Source of the DNA: a virus
Virus record (IMG/VR): IMGVR_UViG_3300017741_000069
Span: 1-21,584 of that record
Direction: 5' to 3' (one strand)
DNA: 21,584 bases
The notes beneath the pieces were generated by a model that had not been told where the DNA came from, did not search any database, and saw only the letters and a program-made list of their open reading frames with translations. Both the position numbers and the translations under genes were made by a program. Shown here piece by piece: positions 1-21,584 of the stretch. Numbering within the stretch: position 1 is the stretch's first letter; each line of letters opens with the position of its first letter.

Positions 1-3000
1 AAAACCATATATTTTAGATAAAACTTTCCAATCTTCATTGTTTGCAGCAAAATCTAAGTCACTAGTTTCAAATATATCTTTAGTTTGAAATAATCTTATT
101 TTACGTTGTTTTTCTTTACTAAACTTAAAACTTTTAGATCTATCTATTGCTTTAGAAACTTTTTCTGTAGTCTGTGTTTTATCTACAAACTCTCTTTTTT
201 CTTTAACATCAGGTCTTTGTATAGTCTGCATAGTAGCATCAGTTGCAAACTCTTGAGCTAAAGCTTCGGCCAACGCATCTTTTCTAGTACCTTTAGTTGA
301 TGTACCTACGTCTCTACCCAAAAAGTAATTAATAAATTCAGCTTTGGTAATATCTTTTTTCTTAAATATCTTTTTACCTTCTTTAGTTTTTTCTCTTTTA
401 CCAGTGTCTTCTGCAAAAGGTCTAAATCTTTTATTTATAACATCTTGAGGTAATGCTTCTATTATAGCCTCAAAGTTATCTCTTAAAAATGTTTCATAAG
501 CTGCTCTTGATCCTAAGACATCTTTAGCAATAGTTGTTTTTAATTCTGTTCTAAAAGCTTTTAATAATGCTTGTTTAAATTGTTTAGAATCAGCTGGCGG
601 TAATTTAGTGCCAAATGTTTTTACAACAGCATCAACTACTTTTTTACTAGTAGCATCAGTAAGCTTAATTTTCTTTCTTAAACTTTCTTTTGCTTTAGTA
701 GGCTTTTCAGCAACTTGTTCAGTTTTATCTTCAGTAGTAGTATCTGTAACGCCTCTTGCTTCTGTAACATCAACTGTAAACTCTTCTCCTAAAACTCTTT
801 TAGAAGCTTCAATAGCTCTTGAAGGTAAAAATTGGTTTATATAAGCAGCTAGTGGAACACCTTTACTTGCATCATATTCTGATATTAAATCTAGAATACC
901 TCGTTTACCAGTTTCAATTTCATCAGTTAATAATTGTCTATCAAAATTTGGTGCTTGACTTCTTGACTGGACTATTCTATTTGTTATAGGTTTAAATTCT
1001 TCTATTATTTCTATAGCACCATCTTTACCTTTTGTATCAAATATTTTTTGAACTTTATTAGATGCTGCTTCTGATGTAGCTTTTGAAAAAGCCTCTATAT
1101 TTGTTCCTTCAGAGCTATTAAAAAATTTAGAATCTTTTAATCTTTTAGATACTTCACCTGTTTCAAAGCTTTCTTTGTATGATCTTAAAAAAGAACCTAA
1201 ATCATCTTTAGTTGCAAAAGACCAGTTGTATTTACCTCCAGAAGCTTTTCTAATTAATCTCTCAACAAATCTTGCTGCTTTTTCAAAAGCACTTGCCTCA
1301 CCTAAATAGTTTGCGTCATATAACTGTGTTAAATATTCATCAGGTCGTGAGTCTAAATAATCAGAGTCATAACCCATTTCTTCCATTTGCTTTTTTAATG
1401 ATTCTAAATTTTCTTTTCCATAAGATTTTTCAACAAATTCTTCAATGTTTTTTCTATTTAAATCTCCATCTAAAAGAGATTTTGCTAAAACTCCATGTAG
1501 TAATTCATGTGAAGCTGTTGTTATTTCGTAATTATCTAATTGATCAAGAACTTTATTATTTAAATATATATTTTTACCAGAAATAAAACCATAATCTTTA
1601 TTAATATCAAAATCTTCAGGTGCAGCCTCTTCTAATGCTTTTTGATTTTCTTCAGTATTTGCTTCAACAACAGCAAGCCCAACACCTTCAGCAAATTTTT
1701 TAGTAGTTGCAACGTCTTTAACTTTTGATAAATCAGAAGATTCTTTAGAAATTTCTCTTAATCTATTGTTAATAGTTTCTACTTGACCTAGTTTGACATC
1801 GGCAAGAGGTTTTGATTTACCTCTTTTTATAGCTTTTTCTAAAACTTCTTTTTCTTTTAATAAATTAATTGCTTCAGTTTGTAAAGATCCATCAATACCT
1901 AAAGATTTAACTCTATTTGTTGTACCTTGTGTATTGTAAAAATTTTTTAAAATAGCATTAGCTTGATTTTGAGTCACCTCTCCGTTTGTAACAGCTGTAT
2001 CTAAATCTTGTTTTAGTATTACGTCAGCATTTTTTAAAGAAGATATTTTTACTTGTTGTTCAGTTGTTACATTTGATTTATTAAATAATTGAAAAGTTTT
2101 TTTAACATTAGTAGGCCCAGGCGTATCTTTTAATATTTTAGAAATTCTAGTCCTAGTTATAGCATTATTTACACCTTGACTCGCTTGAGAAACAGTAATT
2201 GGTGCTCCATATACACCACCACTACCCATACCTATTACAAAAGCATCTGCAATCCCTTGAAAAAGAGGATATCCTTCTATAGCATTTTGAGTTATTTGAG
2301 TGGCTACCTCTTCAATTCCTTCACCAACAGGAGCTATAGCAACTCCATATTTTTTAAGAGCAGATTCGTACATAGCTATAAGACCATTTTTAAAAGTAAC
2401 TTCTCCAGCTTCTTTACCTTGTTTGAATATTATATCTTTATAAACTTTACCTAAAGATCCTTGCGTTATAGCACTAAAAAAACTTTCAGCTCCAGCTAAA
2501 GCTATAGATTTAGTTATATTTTCTAACTCTGTTTGTTCTGGATTTTGCTCACGTTGTTGTCTTAATTCAGTTCCTGTTAACGCAGTAGTCATAAACTTAC
2601 CGGTTTTAGCAATTCCTTTAGTAGCTCCTCCATACATAAAAGCTATACTAACACCAGCTGATTCACCAATTGCATTTCCCATTGTAACAAACCCATCGTA
2701 ATAATCTCCATTAGAAAAATTATCAGTTGGACTTGTTGTTTTAAATCTTTTTTTATCGTAAATATCTAACTGTCTAGTAGATTTTTCTTGTTCTGCTACA
2801 AAGTAATCTAATATAGGATTTTCTACACCTAAACCTTTTTTTAATTCTTCTGATGTAGTTGCTGTATTTTCAGGTAAAACACCTAATTCAACTAATCCTT
2901 TTAAAGGTAAACCAGCTATATCTATTAAAGTTTCTGGAATACTTGCTATTGCTTCACCTAAATATGCGGCTCCTTTATCTAACCCTTCTAGAAATCTAGC

Positions 3001-3600
3001 AGTTCCTGTTTCGTCTTCAATATTTTTAATTCCTTTTTGAGCTTTATTAAAAAGATCAATAGATTTTAATTTTATTTCTGCAGTAGAAGGAGCAACTAAA
3101 ACAGATTCCGCTTGTTGATCTAAAAAATTTAATTGAACTTCGTTTAGTTCATTGTATTTTCTAGGTAAACTTTTGTCCATAAAAATTTCATAAACAACAT
3201 CTTTTTCTTTTCTTAATTTTTTTTTGTCTTCAGCTAGAATATCTACATAACTTGTTAAATCACCAGCTTGATCAACATCTAAAGGTTTATTACTACTAGT
3301 AACACCACCATCAGTATCTTTACTAAAGTTTTGATTAATTTTATTTATTTTTTCTAAACCCAAAGAAATATCTTCCGATCCTAAGTCCGTATTCTGACCC
3401 GCCGCTATTTGTTCGTTTACCGCTGTTGCATTCGCAGCTTTGTCTACAACAGCTTCTTTCTTTACTGGTTCATCTTTTTTTTCTTCTATTTTTTTTATAT
3501 CAGGATGAGCACTAAGATATTCATCTAAACTTAAACCTTTTTGTTTAGCTTTTTCTTCAAGCATTTCTAAAGAAAAAATTTTATTATTATATTCAAACAT
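1..3600 (-). CDS. Giant internal virion / ejection protein with HExxH protease motif (C-terminus beyond window)
   Basis: From ATG at 3600 the frame stays open for 1200 codons to base 1, so the gene is 3'-truncated by the window and the product exceeds 1200 residues. Its place at the end of the structural block, behind two smaller helical proteins, matches the T7 gp16 position, so I infer a protein carried in the virion and ejected at infection. The N-terminus (residues 9-28) resembles short N-terminal motifs of other marine phage giant proteins. Gly/Ala-rich hydrophobic stretches at about 215-241, 301-340 and 421-480 could contact membrane. HELLH lies at residues 698-702 (bases 1495-1509), with a possible third zinc ligand at E755 in PDEYLTQLYDAN, as in gluzincin-type peptidases. 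Residues 901-940 (bases 781-900) resemble sigma-70 region 2 (EYDASKGVPLAAY). The rest is Lys/Glu-rich and helical. Virion role is inferred; the open frame and the protease motif are seen directly. Confidence 0.85.
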   Translation of the reverse strand, partial: MFEYNNKIFSLEMLEEKAKQKGLSLDEYLSAHPDIKKIEEKKDEPVKKEAVVDKAANATAVNEQIAAGQNTDLGSEDISLGLEKINKINQNFSKDTDGGVTSSNKPLDVDQAGDLTSYVDILAEDKKKLRKEKDVVYEIFMDKSLPRKYNELNEVQLNFLDQQAESVLVAPSTAEIKLKSIDLFNKAQKGIKNIEDETGTARFLEGLDKGAAYLGEAIASIPETLIDIAGLPLKGLVELGVLPENTATTSEELKKGLGVENPILDYFVAEQEKSTRQLDIYDKKRFKTTSPTDNFSNGDYYDGFVTMGNAIGESAGVSIAFMYGGATKGIAKTGKFMTTALTGTELRQQREQNPEQTELENITKSIALAGAESFFSAITQGSLGKVYKDIIFKQGKEAGEVTFKNGLIAMYESALKKYGVAIAPVGEGIEEVATQITQNAIEGYPLFQGIADAFVIGMGSGGVYGAPITVSQASQGVNNAITRTRISKILKDTPGPTNVKKTFQLFNKSNVTTEQQVKISSLKNADVILKQDLDTAVTNGEVTQNQANAILKNFYNTQGTTNRVKSLGIDGSLQTEAINLLKEKEVLEKAIKRGKSKPLADVKLGQVETINNRLREISKESSDLSKVKDVATTKKFAEGVGLAVVEANTEENQKALEEAAPEDFDINKDYGFISGKNIYLNNKVLDQLDNYEITTASHELLHGVLAKSLLDGDLNRKNIEEFVEKSYGKENLESLKKQMEEMGYDSDYLDSRPDEYLTQLYDANYLGEASAFEKAARFVERLIRKASGGKYNWSFATKDDLGSFLRSYKESFETGEVSKRLKDSKFFNSSEGTNIEAFSKATSEAASNKVQKIFDTKGKDGAIEIIEEFKPITNRIVQSRSQAPNFDRQLLTDEIETGKRGILDLISEYDASKGVPLAAYINQFLPSRAIEASKRVLGEEFTVDVTEARGVTDTTTEDKTEQVAEKPTKAKESLRKKIKLTDATSKKVVDAVVKTFGTKLPPADSKQFKQALLKAFRTELKTTIAKDVLGSRAAYETFLRDNFEAIIEALPQDVINKRFRPFAEDTGKREKTKEGKKIFKKKDITKAEFINYFLGRDVGTSTKGTRKDALAEALAQEFATDATMQTIQRPDVKEKREFVDKTQTTEKVSKAIDRSKSFKFSKEKQRKIRLFQTKDIFETSDLDFAANNEDWKVLSKIYGF

Positions 3601-3617
3601 AATTTAATTTTTAATTG

Positions 3618-5207
3618 TTACTCAGGTAAATCACTAAAATTACCTAAGTTATTAGAAAGTTTATCTATTTCTAAACCAAACACCGCTTGTAATCCACCTA
3701 TGTCTGAAAAATCAATTTTAGAAATAAGACTTTGCGGAAGTCCATTTGCTCTTAATATAGCAGCTTTAATTTGACCTTGAGTCATATCAGAAGTAATATT
3801 TTGTTTGGTTTTGCCAGAACCTATTGAAACGCTTTTACCATCTTTTCCAAAATTAGTTTCTTGAGAAAGGTCTACAGAAGTATATTTATCTATTTCTTTT
3901 AATAAATCCATAGATGTATCTATATTTTTAAATAAAGGTAATGTTGTTTTTTGTAAATACAAAGCTAATTGTAATCCTTCTTGTAATTCCGCTTGTTTAC
4001 TGTTAGTTTTTGACGATGTTTCTTTAGGTGTTCTGTATATTTCTTTAGGAATACTGTTTTCAAAACGCTCCTCTAGTTGATTTAACATTTCTTCTTTTAC
4101 TATTTCTAGTGATTTTGGATCCAAAGAAGTACCTTGTGAGCTACCAACTTTTAAATTAGGTGCTTTATCTTTTTCTTTTAATTCTTGGACATCTATACCT
4201 AATTCTTTAGCTTTTTTTAAATCAATTTTTTTTCTTAAAACATTATTATAATAACTATCTATAGAATTAAAACCAGTACCTGGACCATCTATTAAACTAC
4301 CTTGATTAGAGTATCCTGCTAATGTTGATAAAACATTTTTATCCATATCTCTTCTAAAAACATCTCTATTTGTTTTGTTAAACTCATATGTTTCTATTGT
4401 TTTACCTTCTATTATTTCTTTTTTACCTGGAGTTAAATAATCTAAAGCTCTTCCAGTTAAATCAGCTTGATCATTTTTGTTAATAATTTTTAATTCTTTT
4501 AAACTATCTATAGATTCTTTTGTAATATTGGGTATTGTAGGTAATTCAGTAGACATTAAAGCCATTAAACTTTGTTGATAACTACCTTCTTTACCAAAAA
4601 CACCACCTGTTGAATTTAAAACAATATCAAATACGCCATTATTATTTACTATATTTATACCTAAATCTGATGGTAATCTATCATTGTATGTTGATAAAAA
4701 GAATTTAGCTAACGTAGGATCTAACTTTTGCATATCAAGACCGCCTTCAGAACCTGCTTTGTTTACAGATCCTATTTTAGAATATAATTCTCTTTTTTCT
4801 TGAAAATTTTGTAATAAGTTTTTCATACCACCACCTTTAAAAAAACTTTCATATTGAGATAATTGACGCTGTAACTCTGCTCTTTCAACAGGATCTTTAG
4901 AGTTAAATAATTTTGCTTTTATTTGTGATCCTTGATCTACTAAGCTTGACAATGCGGGCTGTAATGATGGTTGTAAATCAAAATCTTTAGATGCTAAATT
5001 AGCGCTGTTTAAATAATCTAAATTAAATTTAGTTGTATCGTTTAATAACTTTAAGTTCTCTGCTTCTTTCTTTTTTCTTTCAGCTTCAGCTTTAGCGCCT
5101 AATTTGTCTATAACACCAGCTGTGGTGTTAGAAATATTTTGTATAGCACTAGCAAAGTACTTACCACTTTGAGAATCTACATATGTAACTGGGTTTCTAT
5201 AACTCAT
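3618..5207 (-). CDS. Probable internal virion / ejection protein (T7 gp15 position)
   Basis: A 529-residue protein with no enzyme motif that I recognise. Residues about 31-65 are a strongly charged coiled coil (AEAERKKKEAE), followed by a mostly helical region rich in Leu, Asn, Lys and Ser with many LQ and Q-rich stretches (for example ELQRQLSQYE near 111-120). There is no signal peptide and no clear membrane segment. It lies between the small glycine-zipper protein and the giant protease-motif protein, 17 bases upstream of the latter. By position and composition I infer an internal core or ejection protein analogous to T7 gp15, without claiming homology. The ATG follows an A-rich leader (TTTAAAAAAAAACAATA) with no Shine-Dalgarno sequence. 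The conserved-looking start MSYRNPVTYVD supports this start codon. Confidence 0.7.
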   Translation of the reverse strand: MSYRNPVTYVDSQSGKYFASAIQNISNTTAGVIDKLGAKAEAERKKKEAENLKLLNDTTKFNLDYLNSANLASKDFDLQPSLQPALSSLVDQGSQIKAKLFNSKDPVERAELQRQLSQYESFFKGGGMKNLLQNFQEKRELYSKIGSVNKAGSEGGLDMQKLDPTLAKFFLSTYNDRLPSDLGINIVNNNGVFDIVLNSTGGVFGKEGSYQQSLMALMSTELPTIPNITKESIDSLKELKIINKNDQADLTGRALDYLTPGKKEIIEGKTIETYEFNKTNRDVFRRDMDKNVLSTLAGYSNQGSLIDGPGTGFNSIDSYYNNVLRKKIDLKKAKELGIDVQELKEKDKAPNLKVGSSQGTSLDPKSLEIVKEEMLNQLEERFENSIPKEIYRTPKETSSKTNSKQAELQEGLQLALYLQKTTLPLFKNIDTSMDLLKEIDKYTSVDLSQETNFGKDGKSVSIGSGKTKQNITSDMTQGQIKAAILRANGLPQSLISKIDFSDIGGLQAVFGLEIDKLSNNLGNFSDLPE

Positions 5208-5226: not shown

Positions 5227-6117
5227 TTAACTATACCCCATTGATATACCTGATCCTCCTCCACTAATTTCGGGTGTAGTTAGCGGTGATGTTAAAGTAG
5301 GTGTTTTACTATTACCTCCTAAAGCTCCACTAGTAACCAAAGATCCAGCTATATTTCCTAAACCACTAATCATACTTGAACTTATAGCAGCTCTATCAGC
5401 AGCGGCTTGAGATGCTATTTTTTGTTGACCTTCTATAAGACCAGAAACTCTATCTAATTGTTCACCTTCTCTTCTTTCTCTTGTTCCAAATACAAATTGT
5501 TTACCAGCAACATCAGCTTGTTGTAATCTTTGTGCCTCACTCATTTCTAAGTTTTGTATTCTTTGAGCTTCTGCCATTTTAACACGTTGTAACTGTGATT
5601 CACCCTGTGCTCTTAATTTTTCATTTTGTGCCTCTTGAGCCTCAATACTAGCGCTAACTCCTTTTTTACTTTGTAAAGCAGCTTGGGCTAATGCAGTAGC
5701 ACCACCAGCGCTACCACCAGTTGCTCTTAATGTATCTAATGTATTAGCTAACGCAATATCAGTTTGTTCTATTTGTATTTCAGCAGCTTGAGTAGCAACA
5801 CCAAGACTAGCATACGGATTAGAAACCATACCGCTTAAATCTTTTGCCATACCAGATATATCTTTTACACCAGCATAAGGATTCATAATAGCTTGTCTGC
5901 TTTTTTCTAAGCTAGCTAATTTACCTTCTAATCTTCTTTTTTCAGCTAATGCAGCTTTTTGTCTACGTCTTGCAGCACCACCTCCAAATAGTCCACCTAT
6001 AAGATTTACAGCACCACCTATTATTGCTCCACCTATAATTGGATCTATTACTGCCATAGTAACCCCATAAGAGTTACCAAACATAAACTCAAATATTTTT
6101 AATAAAATTTCTTCCAT
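5227..6117 (-). CDS. Small internal virion protein with glycine zipper and coiled coil (T7 gp14 position)
   Basis: A 296-residue protein. Residues 27-47 are a Gly/Ala/Ile-rich zipper (PIIGGAIIGGAVNLIGGLFG) that could span or insert into a membrane, directly followed by a basic stretch (ARRRQK). Residues 78-150 hold paired NPYA motifs (80, 100) and a GGATALAQAALQSKKG block that I recognise from many marine phage virion proteins. Residues 150-205 form a long polar helix with an 11-residue repeat (MAEAQRIQ at 181, MSEAQRLQ at 192). The C-terminus is Gly/Ser/Thr-rich. A short size, a glycine zipper and a place before two larger ejection proteins suggest the role of T7 gp14, which helps form the channel for DNA across the envelope. 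The start is uncertain: an internal ATG at residue 21 (base 6057, MAVIDP) sits just before the zipper and may be the true start. Confidence 0.72.
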   Translation of the reverse strand: MEEILLKIFEFMFGNSYGVTMAVIDPIIGGAIIGGAVNLIGGLFGGGAARRRQKAALAEKRRLEGKLASLEKSRQAIMNPYAGVKDISGMAKDLSGMVSNPYASLGVATQAAEIQIEQTDIALANTLDTLRATGGSAGGATALAQAALQSKKGVSASIEAQEAQNEKLRAQGESQLQRVKMAEAQRIQNLEMSEAQRLQQADVAGKQFVFGTRERREGEQLDRVSGLIEGQQKIASQAAADRAAISSSMISGLGNIAGSLVTSGALGGNSKTPTLTSPLTTPEISGGGSGISMGYS

Positions 6118-6129
6118 GTTAATTTATAT

Positions 6130-7761
6130 TTAATATGATGATTCTACATATTCTGTAGAAACAGCAAATAATTCTTTTTTACCTATACCGTTTGTTATAC
6201 CACCGTTAGGATTGTTTACTAATTCCATCCTTACTACAGCAAAGAAACCTTCAATACCTGACGTATCTTGTCCGTAAAATATTTCACCGGCAATAGGTTT
6301 TTGTGTGTCGTTTACTAAAGTAGCAAAGTATTTGTTTTCTTTTCTTTTAAAATTGTTAGCAAACAATTGGTTTTGTAAACCACCTAAACTAGTTGCTTGT
6401 ACAAACTTACCTATAGGTAATGCTTTTGTAACAACATCAGAAAGAGCATCAGTAGGTGTAACACCAGATGCTATTGTTGATCCTTGTAAAAAGCCCATAG
6501 ACCATTCCGTTCCTCCTTCGTAGTTTATAGTTTTAAAGTTTTTAATTAAAGATGGTTGACCGTTTAATACTAAAGTTACTGTTGCTTTTTGTGTAAAGCC
6601 GTAAAAATTACAATATTGATTAGGATATGTAGGATTTAATGTATGATGTTTCCATAAACCATTATCTTTAAATGTATAAAAAGTAGATGATAAACTTGTT
6701 AAAAAAGATGGTATATAGTTGAAAAAACTAGTCCAACCTAAAACTCCTTCATCAAAACTCACTGTAGCACTAGAATCACCTTGTATAGATATAACATAAT
6801 CTTTAGAATGACTATCCCAACCACCAACTATTTTAGTTACGTTAGCTTGAGTTAAAATGTCTCTAAAGTAATCATGCATACCATAAGATGATATTTCTGT
6901 TATACCATCTCTTGATAATCTTAAAACTACACCTCTTTTTCTATCTGTAAAATATTTTCTATAACCATATACAGCAAAGCTAAATGGATCAGTTGATATA
7001 CCATATTCACCAGCGAAAGCTACTATTTGACCTATAACCAATGGTGTTGAAGTTACTACAGCATTACCTTCAGCTGAATATATAGCGTCTTTATCTATTA
7101 ATGCTCTACTAACTTTATCTTCTTGGAATATAATTAAATTAGTATCTTCAGCATAAAGCTTTTGTATTGAATTATAAGCAGGATCTAAACTTCTTGTTAT
7201 ATCTTCACCAACAGAAAACTCATTAGTTTCATTAACACCAGTTCTAGAGTTAAATACTCCAGAGTATATTAATGAATTAAATCTATTTCTTTGATTAATA
7301 TCTTCTTCTACCGTATAAGCTTTTACACCAAAGTCAACAGTTAAATTATTATAACCACCTCTTATTCTTGATTCTTCTAAATACCAATCATCGCCTGTTG
7401 TTGGATTTTGATCAAGATAAGCTTTTGGTATATTATCAAAATTAATTATTTCTCCAAATGTAAGAACTGAAGAAGCTGGTATTGTTTGAGAGGTGTTTAA
7501 AGTAAACTCTGTATTAGCACCAGAACTATTAGACAAAGCAATAATATAAGCTGTTCCAGTTACACCAAGCCAACTAACTTCTTGGCCTACATTTAACTCT
7601 GTTAAAGTTTTGGAAGCTGTTATAGTTATAACCGCACCTATTTGACTAGCAAATACAGCTGTATTAGGCGCTGCAACAGTGTTAGGTGTTACATCTACTA
7701 TTGGTTTAATTTTTTTTAGCCAAAAAGTGTTAAAATATTTTAATTCAAGTGTTGCTGGCAT
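6130..7761 (-). CDS. Tail protein, P22 gp10-like beta-propeller type
   Basis: A 543-residue beta-rich protein. The start (MPATLELKYFNTFWLKKI) and the block at 124-150 (DDWYLEESRIRGGYNN) look like two conserved pieces parted by a Thr/Val/Ala-rich stretch at about 33-105 (bases 7447-7665), which I read as an inserted beta domain. Residues 200-375 carry propeller-like repeats: IIFQEDKVSRALIDKD near 210, VYGYRKYFTDRKRGVVLRLS near 264, GGWDSHSKDYVISI near 313, SFDEGVLGWTSFFNYIPSFL near 335 and FYTFKDNGLWKHH near 361. This pattern is typical of the tail-stabilisation / hub proteins of podoviruses that annotators compare with P22 gp10. It would sit at the tail below the portal and adaptor. The gene follows the 1556-aa tail gene by 26 bases. 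Function is inferred from pattern recall, not from a search. Confidence 0.7.
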   Translation of the reverse strand: MPATLELKYFNTFWLKKIKPIVDVTPNTVAAPNTAVFASQIGAVITITASKTLTELNVGQEVSWLGVTGTAYIIALSNSSGANTEFTLNTSQTIPASSVLTFGEIINFDNIPKAYLDQNPTTGDDWYLEESRIRGGYNNLTVDFGVKAYTVEEDINQRNRFNSLIYSGVFNSRTGVNETNEFSVGEDITRSLDPAYNSIQKLYAEDTNLIIFQEDKVSRALIDKDAIYSAEGNAVVTSTPLVIGQIVAFAGEYGISTDPFSFAVYGYRKYFTDRKRGVVLRLSRDGITEISSYGMHDYFRDILTQANVTKIVGGWDSHSKDYVISIQGDSSATVSFDEGVLGWTSFFNYIPSFLTSLSSTFYTFKDNGLWKHHTLNPTYPNQYCNFYGFTQKATVTLVLNGQPSLIKNFKTINYEGGTEWSMGFLQGSTIASGVTPTDALSDVVTKALPIGKFVQATSLGGLQNQLFANNFKRKENKYFATLVNDTQKPIAGEIFYGQDTSGIEGFFAVVRMELVNNPNGGITNGIGKKELFAVSTEYVESSY

Positions 7762-15971: not shown

Positions 15972-17411
15972 TTAGCTTTGGAACAATACGAAATTGTTAG
16001 CAGCTTGAGTCACAAGACATCTTTCAGATAACCAGTTAACTTGCATTGCATCTAGCTCAGAAGTGTAAACACCTCCAACAGATCCAGTGATCCAGTTTTT
16101 GTATCTTCTGTCATCTCCTTGTGATGATCTATATCTTACGTGTAAGAATGGTCTTCTAATGTTTGTACCTAAAATTTGGTCATACACTGTAGAAGTTCCC
16201 GCAGGAATTAATACACCTTCAATATTACTAACTGCAACAGCACCTCTTGTAGAAGCATCGTTTAAGTATTTCCAGCTAGTTTTGTAAAAGTCATAAGAAC
16301 CTCTTCTAAATCCAGAGAATCCTAAGTTAAGAGCCATATCCTCAGAGTTTTCAAATAAACCATAAGCAACACCTCCAGCAAAACCACCAGAGATTTGTCC
16401 TAGCATATCATCAAAATCTAAATCCATAGATCTGTTTAAGAAAAGCATGTTTTCTTCAATAGCTCCTTGAGTATCAAGATTTTTAAGTACTTGATCAAAG
16501 TCAGAGATACCAGTACCACCGTTGAATCCGGTCATAACATTACCTCTAGCTGTGATAGCAGCAAATAAACCTTCAGAACCATGAGCAACAGCAGCACCAC
16601 CAGCAGCTGTAAATCCTGGTACGTTTGCTGAGCTAGCAGCAAAGTTAATACCAGCAGCTCCAGCAGCTAATTCTGATTCAACCATTGACATTTCTAAATA
16701 GTCATCAAATCTTAATCTTGTTTCAGACTCAGATTTTAAATACCATAGGTATCCTGATGTACCATCTTCTGTGGCAACTTCTACCCATCCAATTTGTGCA
16801 GTATCAGAACCGTTGATTTCATATCTATCTTTTATGATAATCGGTTGGTTAGAATACTGAGTAAATTGTGGTTCAATTGATTTGCTTCCTGACGCTGTAC
16901 CTTTTGCAAAGATAGAACCGTAAACAAATACTTTTAAGTTACCAACTAGTCCTAAAGCATCCCAGTTAGCAGCTTGAAAAGGATAAGCTGTAATATTACC
17001 AGCAGCAACTGCACCAACAATACCTTTAACAGTAACTCCAGTAACTGGGTTCATTATTACTACAGTATCATTTGGAAAAATTGAGTTTTGAATAGTACCA
17101 GCATTAGCAGGAATAGTGATAACAGCTAAACCGTTACCAGTTAAAGTACATCCTGTGTACGCGATGTGTAATCTATTTTGTTCAGACCAGATAACCTGAT
17201 CAGACGTCATTGGCATTTCAGCGCCAACCATTCTTAAGAAACCATTTAAAGTCCTGTTTCCATATCTTTCGACTTCAGCTTCGTATACCTCTGGTAAATA
17301 TTGTTGAGCAAAGTCATTCGCTCCACCGTTAAATGCCAAATAGTTACTAGCTAGGGTTTGTGGCGCTTGGGAAGGTATTAAGTTTCCAAATGCCGGATTT
17401 AATGTAGCCAT
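15972..17411 (-). CDS. Major capsid protein (HK97-fold type)
   Basis: A 479-residue protein that builds the icosahedral shell. It sits directly after the scaffolding gene (15-base gap) and before a strong terminator, the classic capsid position. The N-terminal helical arm (LPEVYEAEVERYGNRTLNGF near 39-58) is followed by GAEMPMTSDQVIWSEQNRLH, a segment I recognise from capsid proteins of marine crAss-like and related podoviruses. Residues 85-170 are beta-rich, in the place of the E-loop. Later there are the spine-helix region (YLKSESETRLRFDDYLEMSM near 224-243), a Gly/Ala-rich stretch at 250-300, and a C-terminal block ending VNWLSERCLVTQAANNFVLF. Size is normal for this class. The ATG follows an A-rich leader with no Shine-Dalgarno sequence. 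Confidence 0.85.
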   Translation of the reverse strand: MATLNPAFGNLIPSQAPQTLASNYLAFNGGANDFAQQYLPEVYEAEVERYGNRTLNGFLRMVGAEMPMTSDQVIWSEQNRLHIAYTGCTLTGNGLAVITIPANAGTIQNSIFPNDTVVIMNPVTGVTVKGIVGAVAAGNITAYPFQAANWDALGLVGNLKVFVYGSIFAKGTASGSKSIEPQFTQYSNQPIIIKDRYEINGSDTAQIGWVEVATEDGTSGYLWYLKSESETRLRFDDYLEMSMVESELAAGAAGINFAASSANVPGFTAAGGAAVAHGSEGLFAAITARGNVMTGFNGGTGISDFDQVLKNLDTQGAIEENMLFLNRSMDLDFDDMLGQISGGFAGGVAYGLFENSEDMALNLGFSGFRRGSYDFYKTSWKYLNDASTRGAVAVSNIEGVLIPAGTSTVYDQILGTNIRRPFLHVRYRSSQGDDRRYKNWITGSVGGVYTSELDAMQVNWLSERCLVTQAANNFVLFQS

Positions 17412-18639: not shown

Positions 18640-21039
18640 TTATTGAGGTGAAAACTGCTCTAAACCAAATCCGTCTAGATTATCATTACCAGCCGATTCA
18701 AAATCTGTAGGTAATAAATCATTTTGACGTTGTTCAATCATTTTTGATTGTTGTGTTGCTTGTATTTTAGTTCTTTTGTCTTTACGATCTTCTATGAACT
18801 GTTCTTTTTGTCTATCGGTATTTATTTTAGCTTGAGCTAATTGTAATTGATAGTTGAATTCTTCAGCCATTAATTGTTTTTTAATCATAGCTTCTTGTTC
18901 CATTCTTTGTATTTCAAATTGAGATTTAGCTTGCTCTATCTGTATTTCAGTATTAGCTAAAGCTTCTTGTTTTTGAACTTCATTCATAGCCGCCTGTTCA
19001 GAAGCTTGCATATTGGCTTGTGCTTGAGCTTGTATCTGCTGTTGTTGTGCGGCTTGATCTTGTTTTTGTTTTTGTATTCTTCTATATTTTAATATTTGAT
19101 TAGCTAATTGTATATTTTTAACCTCTCTAATATCAATAGCGTCTTCAAGATATATTTGACCTGCTTGTAAAGCTACTTGTATGTTTTGCTCAAGTAAAGC
19201 TTTATCTTCTTCTTCTGGCTCTAATTCTAAATAAATACCAAAATCATATAAATGAAGGTTTTTTAATTCATCTAAATTTTGTGTGTTAGTTAAAGAAATA
19301 CTTTGCATTAAAGCTTGTTTAGTTAAATCAAACTCTAACGCATCAGCTAATCTTAACGATATGTTTTCGCATGTTCTTAATGTTAAATATAAACTAGCAT
19401 CTACAATATGTTTAGTAGCTATATTTGAAGCATTGGCAGCCATTTTTTGCAATCCGACCAATGCGTCTTTGTCTGGTAAACTGCCGTCTCTTGCTTCATT
19501 AAGACCTGTTACGTCTCTAATCATTTGTAAATAATATTGGTAAGTGTTTACAAGTGATGCTATTTTTCCGTTTGCACTAGATGATTGTAATTCTTGAATA
19601 GGTACTTTGCCTCTATTAGGATCACCATCTTGTGTTAAGCTTCTACCAACTATGCTACCAGTTTGGAAATACATGTTTAAAGCTTCTTGTGGATTATAAT
19701 TTGTTCCGTTGCCTAAATCAACCTCTGCTAAACCATCTACATCTACAAATACACCATCTGGTACCATCCTTGCAATTACTTGTTGTAATTTTAATGACGT
19801 TAATTGTATCATATCAGCAAAACCAGTAATACGGCTTACAAGCGATTCTACGCGACCTTGGTACATATGAGGTGCACATATAGCATAATTCATATTAACT
19901 TTAGTTAAATCACTTTTAGGTCTTGTCATATTTTCAGCTAACTTCCACTCTAACATTTGTGGAACGCCCATAACTTTACAACCACTAAATAAAACTTCAA
20001 TACTTCTTGAAACTCTATCAAAATTATCACTTTGTGGAGGATTAAAAGTATCTGATTTTACTAAAGCTTTTTCTAAACCTTGATCAGTCTTTTTTATTTT
20101 AAATACTTGATCAACAAAAGTTTTGTATTCAAAATATAATACTTGAACTAAATCATTATCGTAATTTGGTTGAGCTATATAACCTTGACGACCAGGATAT
20201 TTTACTAATCTTTGTAATTCGTCTTCTGTTAAATAAGGAAATTGTTTTTTTATTTCAGCTAATGTTAAAGATTTAATTTCACCAACGTAATATATATCTT
20301 CAAAATTAGGATCATTAGTATAAGAATAAACTAAATTAGCAGGATCTACATAATCTACAACAACTCCTTCAGATTTGTTAAAACTAGTTTTTACAGCACC
20401 AATACCAATTGTAACAATATCATCTACTAATCTTTTTTTAGTCAATTGATATTTATTAAATGCTAACGTATTATTTATAGCTTCTTCTTCAGCAATTTCT
20501 ACAGACTGCTTGTAGTTTAACTGCATATGTATTTCTAATTCTTCTTTTGACTGTGGTAATGTTTTTTTATCAGAATTATATAAATTCATTCCTGTAGTCT
20601 GTTCAATTTCATCAAGATATTCTTGACCCATCATATCTCTATATATACCACCTACATAATCAGTTCTTTGTTTTAAAGAAAAAGGATCTTGAGCATAAGC
20701 CTTTAATTCATAATCTTTAGATGCAATACCATTTGTTACTATATCTACAAACTTAGGTATAATTGGAACTGGCTTCCAGTCTAAATTTAAATAAGACAAA
20801 TCACCATTAACAGATAATTCGTCTTTATATTTTTGAACAGATTGTTCTCCTCTAGCATATAATCTTAGCCTGTTATAATTTTGATAACCTGTTTGCCATT
20901 TGTTACTATTAACTTTTCCGCCTCTAAACCACTCATATTCAATAGCTTGCCCAACTAGCAAACCATACTCTAAACTTTTCTTTTCTTCCTCAGATACCAT
21001 CTGACTTGGAAATGCGCTGTTAACACTAGTATTAATCAT
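18640..21039 (-). CDS. Portal protein with long Gln-rich C-terminal helix
   Basis: A 799-residue protein forming the ring at the capsid vertex through which DNA enters and leaves. Landmarks are the N-terminal helical region with RLYARGEQSVQKYKDEL near 58-75, DWKPVPIIPKFVDIVTNGI near 87-105, TKKRLVDDIVTIGIGAVKTS near 200-219, the stem and crown region KLQQVIARMVPDGVFVDVDG near 417-436, and RDVTGLNEARDGSLPDKDAL near 508-527, a typical portal block. Residues 650-775 are a long Gln/Ala/Glu-rich coiled coil (DQAAQQQQIQAQAQANMQAS near 661), longer than in compact portals and like the C-terminal tails of crAss-like portals. Its ATG immediately follows the terminase stop codon (TAG then ATG, no spacer), indicating translational coupling. 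Confidence 0.85.
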   Translation of the reverse strand: MINTSVNSAFPSQMVSEEEKKSLEYGLLVGQAIEYEWFRGGKVNSNKWQTGYQNYNRLRLYARGEQSVQKYKDELSVNGDLSYLNLDWKPVPIIPKFVDIVTNGIASKDYELKAYAQDPFSLKQRTDYVGGIYRDMMGQEYLDEIEQTTGMNLYNSDKKTLPQSKEELEIHMQLNYKQSVEIAEEEAINNTLAFNKYQLTKKRLVDDIVTIGIGAVKTSFNKSEGVVVDYVDPANLVYSYTNDPNFEDIYYVGEIKSLTLAEIKKQFPYLTEDELQRLVKYPGRQGYIAQPNYDNDLVQVLYFEYKTFVDQVFKIKKTDQGLEKALVKSDTFNPPQSDNFDRVSRSIEVLFSGCKVMGVPQMLEWKLAENMTRPKSDLTKVNMNYAICAPHMYQGRVESLVSRITGFADMIQLTSLKLQQVIARMVPDGVFVDVDGLAEVDLGNGTNYNPQEALNMYFQTGSIVGRSLTQDGDPNRGKVPIQELQSSSANGKIASLVNTYQYYLQMIRDVTGLNEARDGSLPDKDALVGLQKMAANASNIATKHIVDASLYLTLRTCENISLRLADALEFDLTKQALMQSISLTNTQNLDELKNLHLYDFGIYLELEPEEEDKALLEQNIQVALQAGQIYLEDAIDIREVKNIQLANQILKYRRIQKQKQDQAAQQQQIQAQAQANMQASEQAAMNEVQKQEALANTEIQIEQAKSQFEIQRMEQEAMIKKQLMAEEFNYQLQLAQAKINTDRQKEQFIEDRKDKRTKIQATQQSKMIEQRQNDLLPTDFESAGNDNLDGFGLEQFSPQ

Positions 21040-21584
21040 CTAATTAATTATTTTTGATTCAAACCCTTTGTTATCATATTTAGCAAAATTTAAATTAAGT
21101 TTTGCTTTTGTAACATCAGCAACTGGTCTATATTTATTTTTATTGCAAGCCATGATAGCTAAGCCAGAGCTTATTGATGCATCATGTTTTGTTCTATTGT
21201 TTATGTCAAATGCCGCCCAGTCTTCTAATGTTCTTTGAAAATACATTGTACCGTATTGTTCATTGTTAAATCCAACAAACATTTCAATGTAGGCTTCAAT
21301 AGCTGCGGCATGAGCTTGTTTTACGTCTTCACTTGAATTAGGTATACCACCTATTTCTTTTTCAGTTATAGACATTTTATGTATTGTTTTATCAGGTCTA
21401 TTCATAGAATAACCCCTGTAACCTCTACGTTTAAAATGGTATAATAATCTAGGTTTATTATTTTCTGCAAGTATTGGCATCCCATAAAATATGCAAGCCA
21501 TAAGCACATCTTCAAAAAATATTTCTGCAGTCTGAGGTCTAGCTATATATTCTAAAAAGAACTCCCATATCGGAAGAGCACAAA
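21040..21584 (-). CDS. terL: Terminase large subunit, C-terminal nuclease part (start beyond window)
   Basis: The frame is open from the right edge of the window, giving 180 visible residues before TAG. It reads CALPIWEFFLEYIARPQTAE from base 21582. A GTG at 21507 is only an in-frame codon, not the start. MPILAENNKPRLLYHFKRRG, then YRGYSMNRPDK, is the C-terminal RNase H-like nuclease region of terminases from Bacteroidota and crAss-like phages. Here E40 of the visible part is a candidate metal ligand. In NRTKHDASISSGLAIMA the Asp at visible residue 134 fits the final catalytic acidic residue. The protein cuts concatemeric DNA and drives packaging into the procapsid. The ATPase half lies outside the window. 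It is the first visible gene of the morphogenesis operon and abuts the portal gene. Confidence 0.8.
   Translation of the reverse strand, partial: CALPIWEFFLEYIARPQTAEIFFEDVLMACIFYGMPILAENNKPRLLYHFKRRGYRGYSMNRPDKTIHKMSITEKEIGGIPNSSEDVKQAHAAAIEAYIEMFVGFNNEQYGTMYFQRTLEDWAAFDINNRTKHDASISSGLAIMACNKNKYRPVADVTKAKLNLNFAKYDNKGFESKIIN
21569..21582. other. 14-base match to the common Illumina adapter core at the window end
   Basis: The plus-strand sequence ATCGGAAGAGCACA is identical to 14 bases of the common Illumina adapter (AGATCGGAAGAGCACACG), yet it reads in frame as part of the terminase (complement codes for CALPI). It may be true phage sequence where adapter trimming ended the assembly, or a short leftover of adapter. 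Confidence 0.5.

Follow-up and report, generated by a model that had tools for sequence, protein, structure and literature searches.

The window (the whole stretch of DNA analyzed, 21,584 nt) comes from a marine phage of flavobacterial type, the nearest annotated phages infecting Flavobacterium, Maribacter, Cellulophaga and Tenacibaculum. Its genes follow in the order terminase fragment, portal, capsid, muzzle-like protein, and then a 296-aa protein, a 529-aa protein and a giant protein; all features given below with coordinates are on the minus strand. The terminase piece is read from gene order as a C-terminal fragment. The portal protein (18640..21039) was assigned by sequence match, and the major virion structural (capsid) protein (15972..17411) by sequence identity, being 48-49% identical to its counterparts in a podovirus from Manatee Spring and in Maribacter phage Panino. 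The muzzle-like tail protein (6130..7761) matches Pfam crAss_MUZ; a match to this crassvirus muzzle family is thus seen in a podovirus of flavobacterial type. The 296-aa protein (5227..6117), with a glycine-rich N-terminus, is akin to gp99, found in the virion of Cellulophaga phages (E=4.6e-8 to the phi38:1 copy), and the 529-aa protein (3618..5207), for which sequence comparison with phage proteins gave no match, lies by gene order where phi40:1 has gp100, its second ejection/cargo protein. The contig end at positions 21564-21584 reads TTTGTGCTCTTCCGATATGGG, 14 bases of which we take to be the end of an Illumina adapter. It is probably residual adapter, and the opening codons of the ORF fragment at this end are thus probably not real.

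The giant protein (1..3600) is seen over 1200 residues, at which point its ORF runs off the contig end; its relatives reach about 1,600-3,700 residues. Giants end the same gene order in Elemovirus (3,694 aa), ctfjg026 (3,859 aa), Panino (1,829 aa) and Callevirus phi38:1/phi40:1 (1,691 aa). Judging by its relatives and by syntenic giants of cultured flavobacterial phages, this is a mosaic protein of the polyvalent type, i.e. a multidomain protein encoded among virion genes. The first-pass annotation, made from the sequence alone, had described it as an ejected virion protein. No sequence match was found between the window giant and the giant of phi38:1 (near-identical to that of phi40:1), and the location in the particle is supported indirectly, by gene order and by relatives. 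In particular, phi40:1 gp97-gp101, including the syntenic giant gp101, are annotated from MS/MS of particles, with gp99 among the proteins found in virions. Together with the kinship of the 296-aa protein to gp99 and the match of the N-terminal part to the Panino giant, this makes it likely that the giant is virion cargo. Ejection into the cell, the other half of the description, is suggested by the gene position and by the precedent of T7, N4 and crassviruses.

The N-terminal part of the giant (residues 1-587; 1840..3600) matches residues 6-317 of the Panino giant by its family profile (E=1.6e-16), and is detectable in few of the ten closest loci. A highly conserved block at residues about 975-1170 (about 195 residues; 91..678) has 70-94% identity across these ten loci and is kept while its flanks diverge. 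On sequence comparison, the giants evidently exchange parts between relatives. No significant family was found for the window giant in Pfam and PHROGs. In the giants of L017, L059 and L063, Pfam identifies zeta-toxin/polynucleotide kinase-like P-loop domains at residues around 1640-1860, and one long relative has a sub-threshold match to LPD14. In L069, a P-loop kinase of the same type was seen by eye just after the zincin-like domain described below.

Gluzincin-type metallopeptidases carry HExxH and a downstream Glu. Both elements reported for the window giant in the first-pass annotation were confirmed in their positions: HELLH at residues 698-702 (1495..1509), where H698 and H702 are the predicted zinc ligands and E699 the predicted general base, and, as the predicted third ligand of the zinc, E755 (1336..1338), with which a predicted helix begins. 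The giant has only three His, with 110 Glu, in 1200 residues, and two of the three His are in HELLH; from its composition, 0.0007 occurrences of HExxH are expected in this protein, and one is seen.

The conservation of the site was assessed in three samples. The scan with patterns lacking the motif yielded ten loci, nine of which have HExxH in the giant (in the most distant one, L010, at a different place), the remaining locus, L003, having EELFH at the motif position. A wider scan with the domain alignment yielded 61 loci. Its patterns contained motif residues, and as a control for this bias the loci were split by the pattern that had retrieved them: HExxH is present in all 14 loci retrieved only via the Glu pattern, and Glu in all 36 retrieved only via HExxH. 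The alignment of homologues proposed in the first pass bears the site out, H698, E699, H702 and E755 all being invariant in 58 distinct relatives. Few other columns are invariant, G671, N681, Y744, T758, F795, F804 and Y808 are nearly so, and around the site the identity of the relatives to the window protein is in most cases no higher than about 20-30%. The third sample comprised 79 giants selected only by the downstream sigma-like domain (see below); HExxH is found in 75 of them, 123-223 residues (median 146) upstream of that domain, and nowhere else in the 155,913 residues of these giants.

The exceptions are EELFH in L003 and L112, EEIFH in L108, HDTGH in L156, and L092 and L172, which have no zincin domain. 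Among 72 distinct relatives there are three degenerate motifs and one giant that is without the zincin yet has the sigma-like domain. The absence of the residues from homologues had been named beforehand as evidence against the assignment; the residues proved to be kept in the family, with four relatives departing from the standard motif, and catalysis is thus not strictly required. The degenerate sites of L003, L108 and L156 keep the third Glu, and their sequences suggest repeated loss of catalysis.

Residues 588-857 were modelled with AlphaFold2 from an alignment of 57 sequences (mean pLDDT 77.5), giving the order strand, helix, hairpin, HExxH helix, and helix starting at E755. H698-H702 lie inside predicted helix 108-123 (model numbering), E755 begins predicted helix 168-175, and predicted strands 56-59, 84-87 and 90-93, as well as helices 10-52 and 63-72, fit the MPTase topology, in which a three-stranded sheet and an N-terminal helix precede the HExxH helix, but the fold searches are weak. 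Iyer et al. (2017, PMC5512222) described the same order of elements for the zincin-like MPTases found in polyvalent proteins. Of the fold prediction and fold search recommended by the first-pass annotation, the prediction thus agrees with a zincin, but the search gave no confident PDB match: Foldseek comparison of the model with PDB and viral libraries returned nothing at E<=0.001, and the second-look structure matches, led by M34 zincins, have Z of 3.5 and lower, being weak and not counted as proof. Zincin profiles found nothing among PDB sequences.

A modest relationship to the peptidase region of N4-type vRNAPs was detected by hhalign (score 40.1, P 4.5e-5, vs 10.8-15.9 for shuffled and reversed controls and 12.0 for an unrelated alignment); with HExxH masked, the score was 22.5 and the register unchanged. 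Members of the family weakly match Peptidase_M78, SprT-like, DUF3267 and M90, and a weak match to a PHROG metallo-protease was also seen. The invariant residues in the alignment of relatives, the zincin order of the predicted fold and the profile similarity to the metallopeptidase of N4 vRNAP uphold the gluzincin-type HExxH...E domain (residues about 636-818; 1147..1695), which is very probably of the zincin type. We classify the domain as a new branch of the polyvalent-type zincin-like metallopeptidases, with putative activity and expected to bind zinc and to cleave proteins.

The earlier reading overlooked the known theme of zincins in polyvalent proteins (PMC5512222), as well as the neighbour of the peptidase, a helical domain resembling sigma-70 region 2 (residues about 844-944; 769..1071) that was recognized by AlphaFold2, fold search, PHROG and hhalign. 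This is the best conserved part of the giant: 62 of 64 non-redundant relatives are about 58-76% identical to the window copy. The AlphaFold2 model of this domain has a confident helical core. In the PDB fold search most rows are sigma factors, none with E-value < 0.001, and all 50 second-look matches listed are sigma factors, the best one with Z 9.4 and 2.7 A over 90 residues of sigma-70. The tool cautions that helical bundles can commonly give Z values below about 13, and therefore we rely on the uniform sigma identity of the matches and on sequence signals. As for the latter, the PHROG family of RNA polymerase sigma factors is matched by 20 of 65 members (best E 0.0054), Pfam Sigma70_r2 is weakly matched by one member, and hhalign against four E. 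coli sigma factors gave scores of 26.5-28.9 vs 8.0-14.0 for controls, in the register of regions 2.1-2.3. Sigma matches obtained with a small profile in the PDB sequence search (E 0.13-0.26) were gone with a larger profile, and thus the sigma reading rests on the fold, PHROG and hhalign.

These sequence signals are weak but independent, and with the model they make a sigma region 2-like fold quite probable. Scans of the full ORF in nine long relatives gave no match to Sigma70_r4, the window copy being truncated by the contig end; hence the domain is called region 2-like here, and not a demonstrated sigma factor. A lytic transglycosylase was also considered and looks less likely: the weak match of the small sigma-domain profile to lytic transglycosylase chains (E 0.0089) did not recur with the larger profile, and the second-look matches listed in the structure comparison were all sigma factors.

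The sigma-like domain is present in about 130 IMG/VR environmental contigs; tblastn against 50,697 phage genome records gave no match to it even at E<=1, and a search of genome contigs found none. Among the 58 zincin-bearing giants retrieved by the zincin itself, 39 are without a clear sigma-like match. In one group of relatives, a diverged post-zincin domain aligns with sigma region 2 (26.8 vs 12.1 for the control), in group g017 the post-zincin domain scores 24.7 vs 16.1, although not within the core register of region 2, and of two further groups one is marginal against sigma region 2 and one does not align. L035 and similar giants have, in the same post-zincin position, a diverged domain with a sigma 2.3-like stretch, RFNPKESKFSTWV. 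The pairing of the zincin-like and sigma-like domains may thus, by sequence, be wider than clear matches indicate.

Phages without a virion RNA polymerase must seize host transcription immediately. Virion-borne polymerases are known in N4, crassviruses and P23-45, and T4 Alt is a virion-borne modifier of RNA polymerase; we know of no virion-borne sigma-like module, and none was found in open-licence papers. The zincin family is known and the motif finding is real; its pairing with a sigma-like domain is, as far as searchable papers show, new within the open-licence literature. The explanation that we consider best overall, giving it somewhat less than an even chance, is that the peptidase cuts its own polypeptide and so frees the sigma-like module after packaging or entry. 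The zincin-like peptidase would sit in a giant that is packaged in the virion and enters the cell by ejection, and would cut its own chain at interdomain linkers, either in head maturation or after entry. The cutting would free the sigma-70 region 2-like domain and the remaining cargo, and the freed domain would bind host RNA polymerase, which would then be redirected to early phage genes or blocked in host initiation. Cleavage in cis is proposed tentatively, and action on RNA polymerase is what we infer for the freed domain.

A local task for the peptidase is favoured by its being intact and in fixed pairing with the sigma-like domain. Self-processing has been proposed for such zincin domains, with the processing of P1 DdrB before packaging as a precedent; against self-cutting, the N4 vRNAP, which bears a related peptidase, is packaged uncut (PMC5512222). 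Moreover, given three degenerate domains and one absent domain among 72 distinct relatives, release by the peptidase cannot be obligatory. The best explanation is also weakened by the 39 of 58 zincin-retrieved giants that show no clear sigma-like match, by the empty Foldseek search with the zincin model and by the negative region 4 scans in nine relatives. The fuller proposal, that virions of widespread uncultured flavobacterial-type podoviruses contain a sigma-like module, freed by the peptidase on entry and capturing host RNA polymerase before phage gene expression, is rather doubtful. If this mechanism is true, a transcription switch able to release itself may be brought into the cell by these phages. 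In any case, the adjoining peptidase makes the old proposal, zincin processing of injected polyvalent proteins, directly testable.

The first-pass annotation had offered processing of virion proteins, opening of the cell wall or action on host proteins as possible roles of the protease. The cell-wall role finds no support. Action in trans, with an injected effector protease cutting host proteins such as RNA polymerase partners or defence proteins, is named as an alternative for such domains in PMC5512222, and relatives here do carry other effector-like domains, e.g. the zeta-toxin/polynucleotide kinase-like P-loop; still, the constant position of the peptidase next to the sigma-like domain (75 of 79 giants) fits local action better, and we consider this role unlikely. 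A virion maturation protease, cutting structural or neighbouring cargo proteins in assembly, would agree with encoding in the late virion module and with the case of P1 DdrB, where processing precedes packaging (PMC5512222). It is improbable, since the domain is built into the cargo protein itself and the giants of the cultured phages phi38:1, phi19:3 and Panino are without HExxH, so that maturation in this group needs no HExxH peptidase.

Retention of the zincin fold as a structural or metal-binding scaffold, devoid of protease activity, could explain the degenerate motifs EELFH, EEIFH and HDTGH, but nearly all relatives retain the catalytic Glu together with every ligand despite mostly about 20-30% identity of the surrounding sequence, which makes this quite improbable. 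A chance match to HExxH, conceivable for so short a motif, has practically no probability left: the expectation is 0.0007, and the invariance in 58 relatives, the controls split by pattern and the positional linkage already refute it.

Several known systems can be compared with the window giant. T7 gp16 has a lytic transglycosylase domain, located at its N-terminus; the window giant has no Pfam match, and a weak hit to lytic transglycosylase chains came from the small sigma-domain profile only. Polyvalent zincin-like MPTases (PMC5512222) share with the domain described here the HExxH helix with Glu in the next helix and the mid-position in a giant multidomain late-gene protein, and the relatives here also co-carry the zeta-toxin-like kinase and the LPD14 match. 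In contrast, the domain here belongs to no Pfam or PHROG family and has a sigma region 2-like domain as its partner; the main text of PMC5512222 never uses the word sigma. In the Crassvirales (PMC10172136), a muzzle-like protein likewise lies upstream of ejected cargo and the module contains a giant cargo protein, but the crass giants are RNA polymerase-associated, and no protease is mentioned in the text of that paper. The N4 virion RNA polymerase gp50 (Schitoviridae) shares the portal-to-cargo order with the giant last, and its HELVH peptidase domain is profile-similar to the zincin here; however, N4 carries an RNA polymerase, instead of which the giants here have the sigma-like domain, and no polymerase match was found in long relatives of the window giant.

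With the sigma-70 family the sigma-like domain shares a region 2 fold, by prediction, and a weak sequence similarity that keeps the register of regions 2.1-2.3, the differences being that no region 4 was found and that the domain here is embedded in a giant virion-type protein. Elemovirus gp18 (Flavobacterium phage vB_FspP_elemoE_6-9C) is a syntenic giant structural protein that differs in having 3,694 aa and no detected sigma-like domain. The zincin family profile matches its residues 1474-1669, with the motif HEIFH (E=5.6e-8), and Elemovirus is a cultured phage bearing a related peptidase domain, open to study now.
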